From Desulfovibrionales bacterium (GTDB lineage: Bacteria > Desulfobacterota > Desulfovibrionia > Desulfovibrionales > Desulfonatronaceae): a stretch of 64,000 nucleotides of DNA. Below are positions 32,224 through 40,074 of the stretch, piece by piece (the first letter of the stretch is position 1; every line of letters starts with the position of its first letter). The stretch covers positions 186,001 through 250,000 of the forward strand of contig REDL01000064.1 in NCBI GenBank assembly GCA_007693505.1, written 5' to 3'. The translations under genes and the position numbers were made by a program. The notes beneath the pieces were generated by a model that saw only the letters and a list, made by a program, of their open reading frames with translations, did not search any database and had not been told where the DNA came from.

Positions 32224-33183
32224 TTACAGAGGCTTATAAAACGGAGTCATCTGGTCCCAGAAGCGCGGTTCACTGCACCCGATGCAGGGGTGGCCGGCTT
32301 CCACGGGCCAGTTGGTTTCATTGAATTTTACCTCGGGACAGTTGTTGAAGGTGTCCGGTCCTTTGCAGCCAACTTCCAGCAGGCACCAGCCCTTCTTGGC
32401 CTCCTCTGAGTCAAAGGTGGCCGCAAACTCGAAGTTGAAATAGTGGTCCAGCCGTTCACACAGTTCATGCACCGTCTCGCTGTAGAACATTCTGGGACGA
32501 TGGAGTCGATCCAGTGCCGGCATGCCTTTGGTCAGTAAATGGACCACGGTACCCACGAAATTGTAGGGACTCGGTGGGCATCCGGCGACGTTGATGGCCC
32601 GTGTCTCCAGCCCAAGGTGCTCCATCAATTCGTTGACGCCCATCGCCCCGGTGGGGTTGGGTGCGGCCGCCTGGATACCGCCGAAGTTGGCGCAGGCACC
32701 GATGGCGATCACGGCTTCGGCCTTGGGCAGGTATTTCTCGGCTATTTCCAGCATTGTATTCCCGCCTGTCATGCCGTAAATTCCGTTGTCCTTGGTGGGA
32801 ATGCCGCCTTCAACAACGGCGATATAGCCGTAAGGTGATGTAACAGCCTGTTCCAATGCTGCCTTGAAATTGTCACCGGCGGCGGCCATCAATGTTTTTT
32901 GATAATCCAGGGAAATGGTGTCGAAAAGCAGTTCGTCGATGTAGGGGTTGACCGCACGAACCACGGACATGGTGCAACCGGTGCATTCGGCGAGGTGAAA
33001 ATACACCACTGAGGGCCTGCGCGGATCCGTGAGCGCCGCCGCGACCTGCTTGGCAAATGAGGCCTCCATGCCCATGACCGCCGCAACACCGGCACAAAAT
33101 TTCATGAAGTCGCGACGGTTGACGCCACGACTTTGAAGCCGTTTTTCGGCTCCTTCCTTAGCCAGACCAACACTGAGTTTCAT
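32224..33183 (-). CDS. hynA: [NiFe] hydrogenase small subunit
   Basis: 319 residues. Tat signal NRRDFMKFC with hydrophobic stretch targets the folded enzyme to the periplasm. Iron-sulfur ligands: AECTGC for the proximal cluster and IGACANFGG plus GCPPSP; for the others a late His plus [22 protein letters not shown] and HPCIGCSEP. Unusually, the residue after CTGCT is Met, where standard enzymes of this group have Glu (CTGCSE). A 51-base gap separates it from hynB; first gene of the operon. It takes electrons from H2 and probably passes them to periplasmic cytochrome c3. Confidence 0.93.
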
Positions 33184-33638: not shown

Positions 33639-34850
33639 TTACCCTTGTTCGGCAGGAACTCGTGCGTTGACTTCCCGGCCAATCTTGCTGCCGAACTCCT
33701 GGCAAGCTGCCAAGTCCGCGTCCGTGGGGACATTCTTGATGCGTAAGGGATCCGCGACGATTTCCACCTTGGCGGATTGCAGAAACTCGGAAATCTGTTT
33801 TGGAGCTTCTCCGCTCCATCCGTAGGAGCCAAAAGCGGCCCCGATCTTGCTCTGGGGTTTGAGGCCTTTCATGTAGGTCAACATATCCGCAAGCAGCGGG
33901 AGCATACCGTTGTTGTGAGTGGGCGATCCGGCGACAATCGCCTGGGCATCCATGATGAACGGCATGACGTCGCTGTGATGGGCCGCTTTCAAGGACATCA
34001 ACTGGACGCTGACGCCTTCGGCAATCAGGCCGTCGGTGACGGCCCGAGCCATCCGTTCAGTACTTTTCCACATCGTATCATAGAACACCACGGCCTTGCG
34101 CTGGGGTTTTTGCGCACTCCATTCAGCGTACTTGCCGAGGATTTCGGGTATTTGTGAGCGCCAGATCACGCCGTGGTCAGGGGCTATCATGTCGATGTCC
34201 CAGCCCACTTCGCCAACCTTGTCCAGCAGTTTTTGAACCAATGGGGAAAAGGGCAGAAGGATGTTTGCGAAGTAGTTGGCGGCTAGGCTGAAGAGCAGTG
34301 TCTTGTCCACTTGGTCATCGAAGCGTTCGCTGGAAGCCAGATTCTGCCCGAAAGCATCACTGGATATGAGCAGCTTGTCCTCAGGAATGAAGGAAAACAT
34401 GCTGTCCGGCCAGTGCAGCATCTTGGTTTCCAAAAACGTCACCGTGCGTTTGCCCAGGCTGATACTCTGCCCGGTTGAAACGACTTCATAGGGCCAGTCT
34501 TCCCGGTGGTAATGGCTGATCAGGGCCTGTTTAGCGATAGGGGAGCAAAAAACTTTTTCCGGCTTGACGAGTTCCATCAGTCGAGGCAAGGCCCCGGAGT
34601 GGTCCGGCTCAACATGATTGACGATGAGGTAGTCGATCTGTTCCGGATCAATGGTGGCCTTGAGGCAACGTAGCAGCTCATCCACATGATTGGCCGGGAC
34701 GAGATCAAAGAGGGCTATTTTCTCGTCTTTGACCAGGTAGGCGTTGTAGGTCGTGCCCCGACGGGCCAGGGAGTATCCATGAAAATCCCTCAAGTTCCAA
34801 TCCACGGAACCGACCCAGAAAATGTCCTTCTTGATTTCAACTGGCAGCAT
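33639..34850 (-). CDS. roo: flavodiiron protein (rubredoxin:oxygen oxidoreductase)
   Basis: 403 residues. The N-terminal lactamase-like diiron domain has NHVEPDHSG (HxExDH), then His in MLHWPDS and Asp in SSDAFG. The C-terminal flavodoxin domain begins AVVFYDTMWKSTERMA. The diiron site reduces O2 (or NO) to water, taking electrons from rubredoxin through FMN, so protecting the cell. The ATG at 34850 has a GGAG site 7 bases away; the frame begins at 34868. A rubredoxin gene directly precedes it, but a terminator sits between, so part of the transcription may be independent. Confidence 0.93.
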   Translation of the reverse strand: MLPVEIKKDIFWVGSVDWNLRDFHGYSLARRGTTYNAYLVKDEKIALFDLVPANHVDELLRCLKATIDPEQIDYLIVNHVEPDHSGALPRLMELVKPEKVFCSPIAKQALISHYHREDWPYEVVSTGQSISLGKRTVTFLETKMLHWPDSMFSFIPEDKLLISSDAFGQNLASSERFDDQVDKTLLFSLAANYFANILLPFSPLVQKLLDKVGEVGWDIDMIAPDHGVIWRSQIPEILGKYAEWSAQKPQRKAVVFYDTMWKSTERMARAVTDGLIAEGVSVQLMSLKAAHHSDVMPFIMDAQAIVAGSPTHNNGMLPLLADMLTYMKGLKPQSKIGAAFGSYGWSGEAPKQISEFLQSAKVEIVADPLRIKNVPTDADLAACQEFGSKIGREVNARVPAEQG

Positions 34851-34869
34851 GGTTGTTCTCCAAAACAAA

Positions 34870-34918: not shown

Positions 34919-35077
34919 TCAGCCTTCCGGCTCAAAATTGTCCTTGGAGGCTCCACAGACGGGGCACACCCAGTCCGCGGGAACATCATCAAAACTGGTG
35001 CCGGCCGCGATATTGTTTTCCGGGTCGCCTTCGGCCGGGTCGTAAACATATCCACAAATACTGCAAACATACCGCAT
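34919..35077 (-). CDS. rub: rubredoxin
   Basis: 52 residues, standard rubredoxin length. Iron ligands CSICG and CPVCG with the usual [15 protein letters not shown]. The ATG at 35077 has an AAGGAGAG site; the longer frame to 35200 has no support. One-electron carrier, the expected donor to the flavodiiron protein encoded next and probably to desulfoferrodoxin. It is the third gene of a leftward cluster with the second rubredoxin and desulfoferrodoxin. Confidence 0.95.
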
Positions 35078-35393: not shown

Positions 35394-35768
35394 CTAGGCT
35401 TTCCAGAGACCGTGCAGATTACAGTATTCACGAGCCGTAACCTGCTGGGCCTGGACGCAGAACTCAGCAACAGGCTCCTGGCCGGGGTTCAAAAACTGCC
35501 GATAGGACTTACCGTCAGCAAGGATTTCGATCCATTCGATATAGTGCTTGGATTCCATGGGGTGCAGGGTGCTGCCCACGGTGACCTTGAAGCCGTTGGC
35601 CGTTTTTTCCACGACGGGCACGTGCTTTTCCTTGGCAGCATCTACGGTATTTTCGGTCATGATCTTCATTGGTTCACCGCAGCAGACGAGTTCTCCGCCG
35701 CCTCCGTGCAGTACGTCAATGATGTTGCCGCACATATCGCATTTGTAAACTTCATGTTGTTGGGCCAT
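35394..35768 (-). CDS. dfx: desulfoferrodoxin (superoxide reductase, 2Fe type)
   Basis: 124 residues. Centre I ligands CDMCG and VCCGEP bind the rubredoxin-like iron. Centre II has the active-site [20 protein letters not shown] and CNLHGLW, giving four His and one Cys. It reduces superoxide to peroxide without releasing oxygen, in the cytoplasm, using rubredoxin as donor. Both rubredoxin genes follow on the same strand. An AAGGAG site is upstream. Confidence 0.95.
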
Positions 35769-36002: not shown

Positions 36003-36578
36003 CTACCAGTTTTCCTTTAGGGTTTCGAAATGGGCCTGAGGGTGGTCGCAGGCCGGACACAATGTCGGGGCCTTGGTGCCCTTGCCGATGTAACCACAGT
36101 TGCGACAGCGCCAAGTTACGGCGAGATCCTTGAGAAAGACCTTCCCGGACTCGATATTCGCGGCCAAATCGCGATACTGCTTTTCATGCTGTCGTTCGGC
36201 AATGGCAATGGCCTCCATGGCCGCGGCAATTTCTGGAAAACCTTCTTCCTTGGCAACTTTGGCAAAATTCGGGTACATTTCGGTTTGTTCGTAATGTTCA
36301 CCGGCAGCGGCAGCCAGCAGGTTTTCATGGGTTGTACCAATGACCCCGGCGGGAAATGCCGCGGTGATCTCAACATCACCGCCTTCCATGAACTTGAAGA
36401 GCCGTTTGGCATGCTCTTTTTCCTGGTTGGCGGTTTCCTCGAAAATGAAGGAGATCTGCTCGTATCCATCCTTTTTTGCCTGCTTCGCAAAGTAGGTGTA
36501 CTTGTTTCGGGCTTGAGATTCACCTGCGAAAGCGGTGAGCAAGTTTTTCTCTGTCTGGGTTCCTTTTAATGTGCTCAT
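36003..36578 (-). CDS. rbr: rubrerythrin
   Basis: 191 residues. The diiron four-helix domain has FAGESQARNKY, EETANQEKEH and later EHYEQTEMY and AIAERQHEKQY. The C-terminal rubredoxin domain has CRNCG and CPACDH. NADH-peroxidase type enzyme that reduces hydrogen peroxide in the cytoplasm. GAGG site upstream. It lies 59 bases after a PerR-like gene on the same strand, so it is probably in that regulator's operon. Confidence 0.95.
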   Translation of the reverse strand: MSTLKGTQTEKNLLTAFAGESQARNKYTYFAKQAKKDGYEQISFIFEETANQEKEHAKRLFKFMEGGDVEITAAFPAGVIGTTHENLLAAAAGEHYEQTEMYPNFAKVAKEEGFPEIAAAMEAIAIAERQHEKQYRDLAANIESGKVFLKDLAVTWRCRNCGYIGKGTKAPTLCPACDHPQAHFETLKENW

Positions 36579-36637: not shown

Positions 36638-37051
36638 TCAACCAATTTTTCCTTTTGTTCGACAATCCGAGCAGACACCATGGAATTCCAGCCAATGGCC
36701 GGTAATTTGGAACGTCTTTTCAGCGTCAAGCATTGCCTCTTGCCGCACGGAAACCGAGGCAGCGTCTTCGGGGAGATCTCCCACCTTACCGCACTCCATG
36801 CAGCAAATATGCAGGTGTGGATCCATAGACGCATCGAAACGCATTTGGGAACCGATCTTGTCCAACTTGCGGATCAGTCCCTGTGCATGCAAATAGTCCA
36901 GATTGCGGTAGATGGTTCCGAGGCTGATGTGGGGCAATCGTCTGCGGACCATGTCGTACACTTCATCCGCGGTGGGGTGCGAGCGGGTTCCACGTAATTC
37001 TTCAAGGATAATATTACGCTGAGGCGTCAAGCGGAGACAGGTTGTCGGCAT
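36638..37051 (-). CDS. perR: Fur-family regulator, PerR-like
   Basis: 137 residues. Winged helix with SLGTIYRNLDYL recognition segment; metal-binding HLHICCMECG and CSDC for the structural zinc. Its position just before rubrerythrin and near desulfoferrodoxin fits a peroxide-sensing PerR rather than an iron-sensing Fur. A PerR box could be expected upstream of this gene or dfx, but I could not pick one out with confidence. The start codon has only a distant GGAG. Confidence 0.85.
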   Translation of the reverse strand: MPTTCLRLTPQRNIILEELRGTRSHPTADEVYDMVRRRLPHISLGTIYRNLDYLHAQGLIRKLDKIGSQMRFDASMDPHLHICCMECGKVGDLPEDAASVSVRQEAMLDAEKTFQITGHWLEFHGVCSDCRTKGKIG

Positions 37052-37386
37052 GGAAGGTTGGCACTCCGTTGTTAAGAACAGGAACTATTCCTATTTTCTG
37101 TATTGCCCTTTGTCAAGTATTTCCGACGACGTTATCAGGACAGCGTTATTTTTTCACAAATATTTAATAATTTTAATATTTTAAATTGTAGCGTATTGCG
37201 GGTGTCATCGGTAGCGGGGAATCGTTGAAATCGGTCCAGAGCACCCGTGGCTCGAGAATATGCCTGTCCTGGCAACGCTATCGAGGCAGCTTTTTGCACC
37301 GATCTCGTCATAAAAAATCCGTGATCGAACCATGCTGAATTCGATCACGGATGGATTACGCAAACTGCCGTATGACGCTGGATGGA
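37052..37386. other. intergenic region downstream of the chemoreceptor gene
   Basis: 335 bases. The part near the PerR gene (37080-37200) is AT-rich and probably holds its promoter. The other end has the chemoreceptor terminator at 37317-37352. No gene visible. Confidence 0.6.
37317..37352 (-). terminator. terminator of the chemoreceptor transcript
   Basis: Thirteen-bp perfect stem ATCCGTGATCGAA (37317-37329) and its complement (37340-37352), loop of ten bases. On the minus strand it is followed by UUUUUUAUG. Confidence 0.8.
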
Positions 37387-39399
37387 TCAACTTGCCTGGA
37401 AGCGTTTGACCAGTTCGTTCAACCGATCCGACATCCCGGCGATTTCCTGGATGCCGCGGTCTGCCTCCCGAATATCCTCGCTGTTGGCCGTGGAAAGCTG
37501 GTTGACCTGACTGATGCTTTCGTTGATTTCATCGCTGGTTACGGACTGTTGTTCCGCAGCGGTGGCGATGTTGCGGACCATGTCGGCGATGCTCTCGGAC
37601 TGCTGGACAATGGCTTGCAAGGCCTCTCCGGTGGTCAAAGCCTTCTGGGCTGTTTTTTCTACGACGGTCCTGGTTTGCTCCATTTTCCGGACCGCCTCGT
37701 GGGTGCTGGACTGGATGGTGCTGATCACGCCCTCCACCTGCTTGGTGGCCTGCATGGTCCGCTCCGCCAGCTTACGAACCTCGTCGGCGACAACAGCAAA
37801 CCCCCGTCCGGCGTCTCCGGCCCTGGCCGCCTCGATGGCCGCATTGAGGGCGAGCAGGTTGGTTTGATCGGCAATGTCGTTGATCACCCCCAGCACCTGC
37901 CCGATGTCCTCCGCCCTCTGGGCCAGGTCGTTCAAAGATTTCGCCAGTTCTTCCGTATCCTGAGCCACTTGCTTGACATCCTCCACGGTTTCCTGAACCC
38001 CTTGGCCGCCTTTTTGGGCGCTCCGAGTGGCCTGGGCCGCGGATTCGGCGGTGGAGGCTGAATTTCGGGCAATCTCGACGACAGTGGCGGTCATTTCATT
38101 CATGGCCGTGGCCGCCTGGGTGGTCTGCTCTTCCGTGTTGGCAATCCGGTCGCTGACCGTGATCATTTGGTCGGAAAGCCGGTGGGCCACGCCCCGCAAT
38201 GAACCGGCCATGTCGGTCACCTCACAGGCTACGCCCAGCAGATTCTCCTGTTGGGCTTCAATGCGGCGTTTGGCCTCTTCTTCCTGGGTCAGGTCGATCA
38301 GGACGCCAATGGCTCCGATGACCTGGCCAGTGGTGTCTCTCAGCGGAGACGTCTCCCGATAGATGGGCACTGTCCGGCCTTCCGGGTGCGTGTACTCCCG
38401 TTTGCCCTGGACCAGTTTGCCCGTACGCAGAACCTGGCCAGCTGAACCGCTACCTTGGCTCAGCCCCATCATTTCCGTGGCGGTCCGCCCCAGGACACTC
38501 TCCCTGGACTTGCCGAGAAGCTGAACAGCCTGATCGTTGATGAACTGAACATGTTCCTGATGGTCGGTCACGTACAAGGGAACGGCAATGCCCTCCAGGA
38601 CGCTTCTGTTGTACTCCAACTGATTCTGGATGCCCTGCACCATCACGCCCAAATTGTCGGCCAGCCTGGCCAACTCGTCGGAGCCGGATACCTGGAACTT
38701 GACCGAGTAGTCTCCATGGCTGATCTGCTGGCTGGCGTGGCTCAAGGCCGCGATCTTGCCGACCACGACTCTGCGCATGAACAACAGCAGGCTGCCCAGC
38801 AGGATGCCGAATCCGCCAATGGACAGGGCCGCCCCTTTGATCTGATGGTCGCGCAGTATGGCCATTTCCGCACCGACATCCTGGAACACCAGCAACGCTC
38901 CAAGTATCGGTTGCGATCTGCCGTGGCAGTGGTAACAAGAGGGATCGTTGGGGATGGACCGTAGTCGCACGTAGAGAGATGTGTCCAGGGTTTGCAGTAA
39001 CACGGCCCGGTCCGCCTGATGCAGCAATCCTTCGTCAAGCATTTCCTGGATCTGGGGGGCCTGATGCACTGAGGTCAGATCCTGGCGGATGGTATCTTGT
39101 CGCGTGGAGTAGGTGATGTTGCCCCGGAAGTCCGTTAAATAGACGTTGACGTCGGCATAGAGTTGTTCAATCTTGGCAAACTGCTCCCGGGTGGCCGTGT
39201 CGTCACCGATGAGCATCGGTTCTTCAATGGCCATTTGCAGCAAATCGGAAACTCGTGTGCCCAGGGTGTCGATCTGCCGCATGGTGTCGGTGCGTTGCCA
39301 GAAGGAATTGACAAGCAGCAGGATCAGAAAGACGGATGCGGTCAGTACGGTGACCAGCACCAGAATTTTGGCCCCCAGGGAATTGCGCAACAGGTTCAT
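37387..39399 (-). CDS. methyl-accepting chemotaxis protein with heme-type CxxCH sensor domain
   Basis: 670 residues. One membrane helix (about 11-31), a periplasmic domain, and a second helix near 188-208. The periplasmic domain ends with CYHCH (155-159), a c-type heme-binding motif, as in DcrA-like redox/oxygen chemoreceptors of sulfate reducers. Then a HAMP region, a PAS domain ([19 protein letters not shown]) and the signalling domain with [20 protein letters not shown]. No C-terminal pentapeptide for CheR. Its start lies 17 bases after a tetraheme cytochrome gene. The heme motif is intact; that heme is bound is inference. Confidence 0.9.
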
Positions 39400-39416
39400 A
39401 TGCGGCTTCCTCGTCT

Positions 39417-39893
39417 TCAGTGGGCACCGCTATAGATCAGCGGCTTGAAGTTAATGACCTGGACCCGCTCGTCCTCATGGCAGGGACGGCAGGTGTCCAG
39501 AGTCAGGCTGCCGATGATGTCGTCCGGGTGGCCGGTTACGACATGCACCGAACCTGGTCCATGGCACCCCTCGCAGCCTACGTGACCCAGTTCCGGGGTT
39601 TCCTCAAAACTGCGAAATCCGCCAGGCCGGCCATATCCGGTGGTGTGGCACTCGAAGCATTCCCGGAGTTCCTCCGGTGTCAGCTTGGGGGCCATTAATC
39701 GGACGCTATGGTCGGACTTGGCCTTGTTGGCGTGTTCCGTGAACCGTTCGTACTCGCCTGGATGACAGTCCGCGCATTCCGCGGAGCCGACGTATCTCGC
39801 CTCACTGGGAACCTGGGCGCCGATGATCAGCGGGGCAAGAAAGGCCAGTGCGAACCAGAGGACAATGGTGATCCCCAACGCTGTTCGTCGCAT
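39417..39893 (-). CDS. periplasmic tetraheme cytochrome c
   Basis: 158 residues with a signal peptide (hydrophobic 8-26) and four CxxCH motifs: CADCH, CFECH, CEGCH and CRPCH, spaced like cytochrome c554/multiheme c-type families rather than cytochrome c3. Extra His residues available as distal ligands. First gene of a two-gene operon with the heme-bearing chemoreceptor, so it may supply electrons or a redox signal to it; it could also be a simple electron carrier. Confidence 0.9.
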
Positions 39894-40074
39894 TGTCGCC
39901 TCCCATTTCGATGTTGCGTTGTTACCGGGCAGGAGGTCAGTCGGTCTGACGACTGTCTATCCGTAAACCCAACATACAAAAATGTATGACACAAGTGTTC
40001 AACAACCAAGATTTCCTTGACATTATTGTATCTATTCTAGCCACTCTTTGTGAAAAAAGCAACGTAGGAGGAAA

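Follow-up and report, generated by a model that had tools for sequence, protein, structure and literature searches.

A chemoreceptor gene with a single periplasmic heme motif and the gene for a tetraheme cytochrome lie side by side in the 64,000-nucleotide stretch of Desulfovibrionales DNA analysed here (contig REDL01000064.1, positions 186,001 to 250,000; the whole stretch is called the window), and the same two genes are found together repeatedly in Desulfobacterota and Nitrospirota. That the cytochrome and the sensor are partners is strongly supported. We propose, with moderate confidence, that the two proteins form one periplasmic sensing unit, in which a dedicated tetraheme cytochrome either exchanges electrons with the receptor heme or brings an oxidant or gas to that heme; within this proposal, electron transfer between the cytochrome and the receptor heme is inferred. 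Heme-Cache receptors themselves are known, and what is new here is heme-Cache receptors with a dedicated cytochrome, in two phyla. No description of a sensor-cytochrome pair was found among the literature titles and abstract openings listed, which were mostly those of papers outside subscription journals.

The two genes are on the same strand with the cytochrome upstream (Table 1), and the spacer between them (39400-39416, 17 nt) contains the ribosome-site-like sequence GAGGAAG. The open reading frames and the sequence bear out the sequence-only reading of this DNA, in which the receptor was placed 17 bases downstream of a four-CxxCH cytochrome gene. The terminator-like hairpin after the receptor and the promoter-like site upstream of the cytochrome fit a two-gene transcript, the scans for such signals being weak (3 terminators versus 3.5 expected, 4 promoters versus 1.3 expected). 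A NiFe hydrogenase small subunit gene (32224-33183, minus strand) comes after the oxygen-defence cluster downstream, and is retained there in several genomes of the same genus.

Table 1. Features of the cytochrome-receptor locus and of the neighbouring genes in the window
Feature	Positions	Strand	Basis
Promoter-like site upstream of cytochrome	40025..40054	-	consensus match only
Tetraheme c554-like periplasmic cytochrome, 158 aa, N-terminal signal/anchor helix	39417..39893	-	four CxxCH, PF13435, homologues, model
Cytochrome heme motif 1, residues 40-44	39762..39776	-	sequence
Cytochrome heme motif 2, residues 79-83	39645..39659	-	sequence
Cytochrome heme motif 3, residues 107-111	39561..39575	-	sequence
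Cytochrome heme motif 4, residues 135-139	39477..39491	-	sequence
Cytochrome His158, last residue	39420..39422	-	C-terminal GxH in 79/80 named relatives (best 80 of at least 383)
Heme chemoreceptor ORF, 670 aa (periplasmic heme-Cache/PAS-like domain flanked by two membrane helices, followed by HAMP, PAS and MCP signalling domains)	37387..39399	-	sequence, Pfam, sensor model
Receptor Met62, candidate distal heme ligand	39214..39216	-	aligned with Met60 of GSU0935
Receptor CYHCH heme motif, residues 155-159	38923..38937	-	sequence; conserved in relatives
Terminator-like hairpin and T run after receptor	37317..37352	-	consensus match only
Fur/PerR-family regulator, downstream of receptor	36638..37051	-
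Rubrerythrin	36003..36578	-
Desulfoferrodoxin (rbo type)	35394..35768	-
Rubredoxin (ORF extends to 35200, likely start 35077)	34919..35077	-
Flavodiiron rubredoxin:oxygen oxidoreductase-like protein (Roo)	33639..34868	-

Pairing was searched for with the cytochrome alone as query, the receptor not being used. Among 61 relatives, 36 of the 38 strong cytochrome matches (E < 1e-37) immediately precede a sensor gene. The other two are G037, with no sensor adjoining, and G053, with the order reversed; three weaker matches are unpaired. In a 395-genome sample of the window's phylum, all 44 cytochrome matches below 1e-40 (41 genomes, nine of the pairs from the window's own order) are directly upstream on the same strand, and the match edges are at most 100 nt apart in 41 of them. 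Of the next 17 matches (1e-32 to 5e-27), 11 adjoin diverged sensors and 6 stand unpaired; this more distant c554-like group is often paired too, so the partnership may be older than the studied cytochrome family. In named genomes, the best 80 of at least 383 cytochrome relatives (the best-80 set) have the cytochrome paired with the sensor at 75 loci, with a gap of at most 100 nt in 67 pairs, at most 400 nt in 7, and reversed order in L170. The sensor is incomplete in four of the 75, being cut by the contig end in L116, L166 and L186 and interrupted by a frame break in L157, and the cytochrome frame is broken in L146; these five and the five sensor-less loci were left out of the modelling alignments, and L176 also out of the cytochrome alignment. 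In the phylum of L173, whose record is titled Nitrospirae, a cytochrome below 1e-55 is present in 22 of 245 genomes, and all 20 of the loci fetched have a CxHCHG sensor gene adjoining it downstream, most of these loci being too short to tell the output domain. The pair, whose conservation the sequence-only reading had named as a check on its idea, thus recurs in two phyla, more widely than that reading proposed. Other neighbours of the cytochrome are present at no more than 15 of the 80 loci by clustering, and the best of the oxygen-defence neighbours, rubredoxin, at 17 of 80 by BLAST (best-80 set). A fused cytochrome-receptor protein was not seen among 271 loci. Distances between sensors correlate with those between cytochromes (r 0.66 over 70 pairs), a value which we do not take as proof of co-evolution because shared descent alone can give it.

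The receptor contains CYHCH once in its periplasmic part, ahead of the second membrane helix, in agreement with the earlier description of the motif. HAMP, PAS_4 and MCPsignal were matched in Pfam, and the periplasmic segment had no Pfam match at E 0.1, PF11845 and PF21563 included; among 27 aligned relative sensors, 17 match PF21563 at E <= 0.1 (best 2.3e-5) and 12 match PF11845. CxHCH is kept in all 71 complete paired sensors of the best-80 set, with G following it in 70 and CHHCH as the commonest form (35 of 71); conservation of CxxCH in receptor orthologues, on which the sequence-only reading had staked its case, is complete in these sensors, and this rules out a chance CxxCH in the receptor. 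Met62, which aligns with Met60 of GSU0935 (numbered by offset from His144), stands in a column with Met in 58 and Leu in 18 of 76 sensors, so His/Met ligation would not be universal.

A profile of the 27 sensors finds the Geobacter structures 3B42 (E 0.0033) and 3B47 (E 0.14), both weakly and with CxxCH aligned. The AlphaFold2 sensor model (pLDDT 95.6) has a Cache/PAS fold with long membrane helices, in which the CYHCH helix (153-159) sits between strands 141-150 and 165-174. Foldseek with this model ranks 3b42_B second (E 1.3e-5, TM 0.31/0.46, rmsd 14.2) and 3b47 eighth (E 8.8e-5, rmsd likewise near 14), the high rmsd perhaps resulting from domain-swapped crystals; WalK sensor domains superpose better on the model, and the 50 matches listed by VIA contain other Cache/PAS sensors, 3B42 and 3B47 not among them. 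Taken together, the weak profile match, the Cache/PAS model and the PF21563 matches of relatives make it most likely that the receptor belongs to the sCache_heme class. GSU0582 and GSU0935 (PDB 3B47 and 3B42; PF21563) are like the window sensor in fold class, in the place of CxxCH, in the His and in the candidate Met ligand, but they have CxSCH where the window family has CxHCH, and the sequence match is weak. In the sCache_heme (DUF3365/Tll0287) family a Cache sensor domain with covalently bound heme is joined to an MCP or kinase output (PMC12889525, partial text), and the motif of the window receptor would likewise attach its heme. The same 2026 preprint also reports domains that occur alone and, in Flavobacteria, one joined to a cytochrome_c-like domain; in the available part of it no separately encoded partner cytochrome is seen and the terms operon, multiheme, DcrA and Desulfovibrio are absent.

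The partner cytochrome scores 66.9 bits against Cytochrome_C554 (PF13435; cut-off 20.8) and matches 1BVB, the Nitrosomonas cytochrome c554, at E 2.3e-12. It is like that protein in its four hemes and family match; it differs in being shorter, in having its own C-terminal GxH and in being linked to receptors. One heme of cytochrome c554 is five-coordinate. Identity as a NapC/NrfH-type quinol dehydrogenase was rejected, the score against PF03264 (NapC/NirT/NrfH) being 19.3 bits, under the cut-off of 24.1. The cytochrome model has a pLDDT of 89.8 (62 in the C-terminal block); Foldseek gave no match under 0.001, and a second fold search gave 6qvm_A as best match (Z 6.7, rmsd 4.2, 117 aligned). In the best-80 set the heme motifs are nearly invariant, as are six His (the four proximal ones, His117 and His158; 80 or 81 of 81). 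Since only two of these are non-proximal, at least two of the four hemes would need another distal ligand, or none, in some members. The mean p-distance over 70 pairs is 0.41 for the mature cytochrome versus 0.73 for the sensor, and this much higher conservation of the cytochrome hints at a second, common partner besides the sensor. Dde_2858 of D. alaskensis G20, likewise periplasmic and c554-like, is reported to show no phenotype in fitness tests (PMC4215793, partial text); it might be the same protein as the window cytochrome, which would suit a signalling role.

The outputs of the paired sensors are of two kinds. In the best-80 set, 63 of the 75 paired sensors have an MCP domain by BLAST and seven have a histidine kinase by Pfam (L117, L173, L177, L182, L183, L187, L192); of the others, three are cut at contig ends and two (L157 and L189) have broken frames. 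The cytochrome is kept with both outputs; it therefore follows the sensor and is not tied to swimming or chemotaxis as such. Eighteen of the 75 paired loci resemble the window in having, on the same strand and no more than 8 kb downstream, two or more of the genes for a PerR-like regulator, rubrerythrin, desulfoferrodoxin, rubredoxin and Roo, and che genes (cheW, cheR, cheB or cheD; one member per cluster checked by Pfam) are nearby in at least eight of the 80 loci.

Sensors and cytochromes also occur apart. In the phylum sample all 55 sensors below 1e-22 were counted as strong (weaker ones above about 1e-14 were mostly left out, two being kept for their adjoining cytochrome, and no rate is claimed for them), and the cytochrome is upstream of 41 of the 55. 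Two of the other 14, both in G101, are at contig edges; beside the 12 that could be judged, no multiheme gene was seen with 2.5-7.2 kb of upstream DNA inspected, three of them having a six-heme ORF 3.6-4.3 kb away. These unpaired sensors, of both MCP and kinase types, indicate that a cytochrome next to it is not indispensable for the sensor. On a sensor tree with 10 unpaired and 71 paired rows there are 7 label changes, 5 of them forced by supported branches, which points to repeated emergence of unpaired sensors or to repeated loss or gain of the cytochrome. Elsewhere in the genome from which the window comes, a histidine kinase whose heme sensor is of the same kind and 48% identical (G000:C111:77872-78489, L061) has no adjoining cytochrome, and heme-sensor kinases of this kind are found in same-genus genomes too. 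Five best-80 loci have the cytochrome without a sensor (L118, L137, L155, L165, L174). In L137 the contig is cut 253 nt past the cytochrome, with cheA upstream, and in L118 an aminotransferase gene follows. The cytochrome directly precedes a radical SAM gene and hemE in L155 (3598-7096) and L174 (9992-13146), with a ferrochelatase gene in L155; in L165 (7302-13894) it directly precedes cheA, with cheB before, cheR after and no heme sensor adjoining.

The sequence-only reading had compared the receptor with DcrA-like sensors, and the comparison is supported by the layout, which like that of DcrA comprises a periplasmic c-heme motif, HAMP, a cytoplasmic PAS and MCP. We take the DcrA motif to be CHHCH and the dcrA gene to adjoin rbo-rub in D. 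vulgaris; past the window receptor the order is regulator, rubrerythrin, then desulfoferrodoxin, rubredoxin and Roo. Nitratidesulfovibrio liaohensis, presumably placed in one genus with the DcrA organism by current nomenclature, has two sensors of the window kind. One precedes desulfoferrodoxin, rubredoxin and Roo and is DcrA-like by place and domains; unlike the window receptor, it has a hybrid kinase gene upstream and no cytochrome, the cytochrome sitting with the other sensor (L152). If D. vulgaris resembles N. liaohensis, studies of DcrA would have had no occasion to come across the cytochrome. DcrA of D. vulgaris Hildenborough is described with a periplasmic c-type heme domain, a heme-free cytoplasmic PAS and MCP (PMC8396549, partial text). 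In the TorC-TorS system of E. coli a multiheme cytochrome attaches to a sensor at its periplasmic domain (PMC11727998, partial text); TorC, unlike the window cytochrome, belongs to the NirT/NapC type of respiratory cytochromes and is encoded in the operon controlled by TorS, and TorS, unlike the window receptor, is not a heme sensor as described there.

In the mechanism that we propose, the receptor would hold a single c-type heme in its Cache/PAS-like domain, ligated by His159 and probably, in a reversible manner, by Met62; in GSU0935 and GSU0582 the spin state of the heme shifts with its redox state and the Met ligand leaves on oxidation (PMC8396549, partial text). The state of the receptor heme would follow periplasmic redox conditions, and in the simplest reading the cytochrome would equilibrate that heme with the periplasmic electron pool or with an oxidant. 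The resulting change in the sensor domain would pass through HAMP, PAS and MCP to the flagellar motor, while in some relatives cytochrome and heme sensor would drive a histidine kinase. From the recurrence of the gene pair we would expect the receptor to learn of oxygen or redox conditions through the cytochrome. The sequence-only reading, in which cells swim by periplasmic electron flow, is supported in part: the heme receptor, the adjoining cytochrome gene and the conserved CxxCH bear it out, and electron passage between the proteins and swimming guided by it would follow from the proposed mechanism. We count in favour of this mechanism the pairing itself, the invariant CxHCH, the likeness to GSU0935/GSU0582, the oxygen-defence and che neighbours, the two kinds of output and the TorC-TorS precedent, and against it the absence of fusions, the unpaired sensors, Leu at the Met62 position, and the sensor-less cytochromes by heme-biosynthesis genes or cheA.

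The chief alternative is that an enzyme acting on NO or peroxide accompanies an NO sensor: the cytochrome would be a small periplasmic reductase or scavenger (of NO, hydroxylamine or peroxide), the receptor would sense the same compound alone, and the genes would be paired because both answer one stress, with no contact between the proteins. We regard this as possible but unlikely. It accords with the c554-family match, with Roo downstream in the window (the D. gigas enzyme reduces NO as well; PMC4287179, partial text), and with a signalling sCache_heme protein that bound NO tightly and did not form a stable O2 complex (PMC12889525, partial text), properties which also favour gas sensing over a pure redox relay. 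However, the neighbours vary by clade (oxygen-defence, che and others) around a constant sensor, which an independent enzyme need not show, only two His beyond the proximal four are nearly invariant, and no catalytic site was recognised.

Less probable still is a ligand-binding co-receptor, in which an open-site heme of the cytochrome would bind a gas and the loaded cytochrome would dock on the receptor with no net electron transfer. The nearly invariant His would allow bis-His ligation for at most two of the four hemes, the shared C-terminal GxH (79 of 80, best-80 set) looks like a ligand or docking residue, and the affinity of TorC for TorS is similar whether or not heme is present (PMC11727998, partial text); such a mechanism would nevertheless make the receptor heme superfluous, yet its motif is in every complete paired sensor of the best-80 set. 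A part in loading or protecting the receptor heme, with no role in sensing, is very improbable: the L155 and L174 cytochromes beside radical SAM and hemE genes speak for it, but elsewhere such sensors mature without the cytochrome (12 strong ones judged to lack it), and two sCache_heme proteins were produced in E. coli with ccm genes only (PMC12889525, partial text). Ordinary operon inheritance with no functional link is just as hard to credit, for although shared descent raises pair conservation and could alone yield the observed distance correlation, other neighbours are far less conserved, the output switched between MCP and kinase while the cytochrome stayed, and the pair is common to a second phylum.

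We give about an even chance to the view that Desulfobacterota and Nitrospirota have a periplasmic redox receptor made of two proteins, a dedicated multiheme co-receptor and a heme-Cache sensor to which it passes electrons or a gas ligand, and that this unit is plugged into chemotaxis or gene regulation. If this is true, these receptors read the redox state of a cytochrome instead of, or besides, a free ligand, and they are wired by protein-to-protein electron transfer that serves both behaviour and transcription. If many DcrA-type receptors have a dedicated cytochrome, in vitro studies of the sensor domain by itself deal with only one half of the sensor, and the removal of one small gene could serve as a test of redox taxis.
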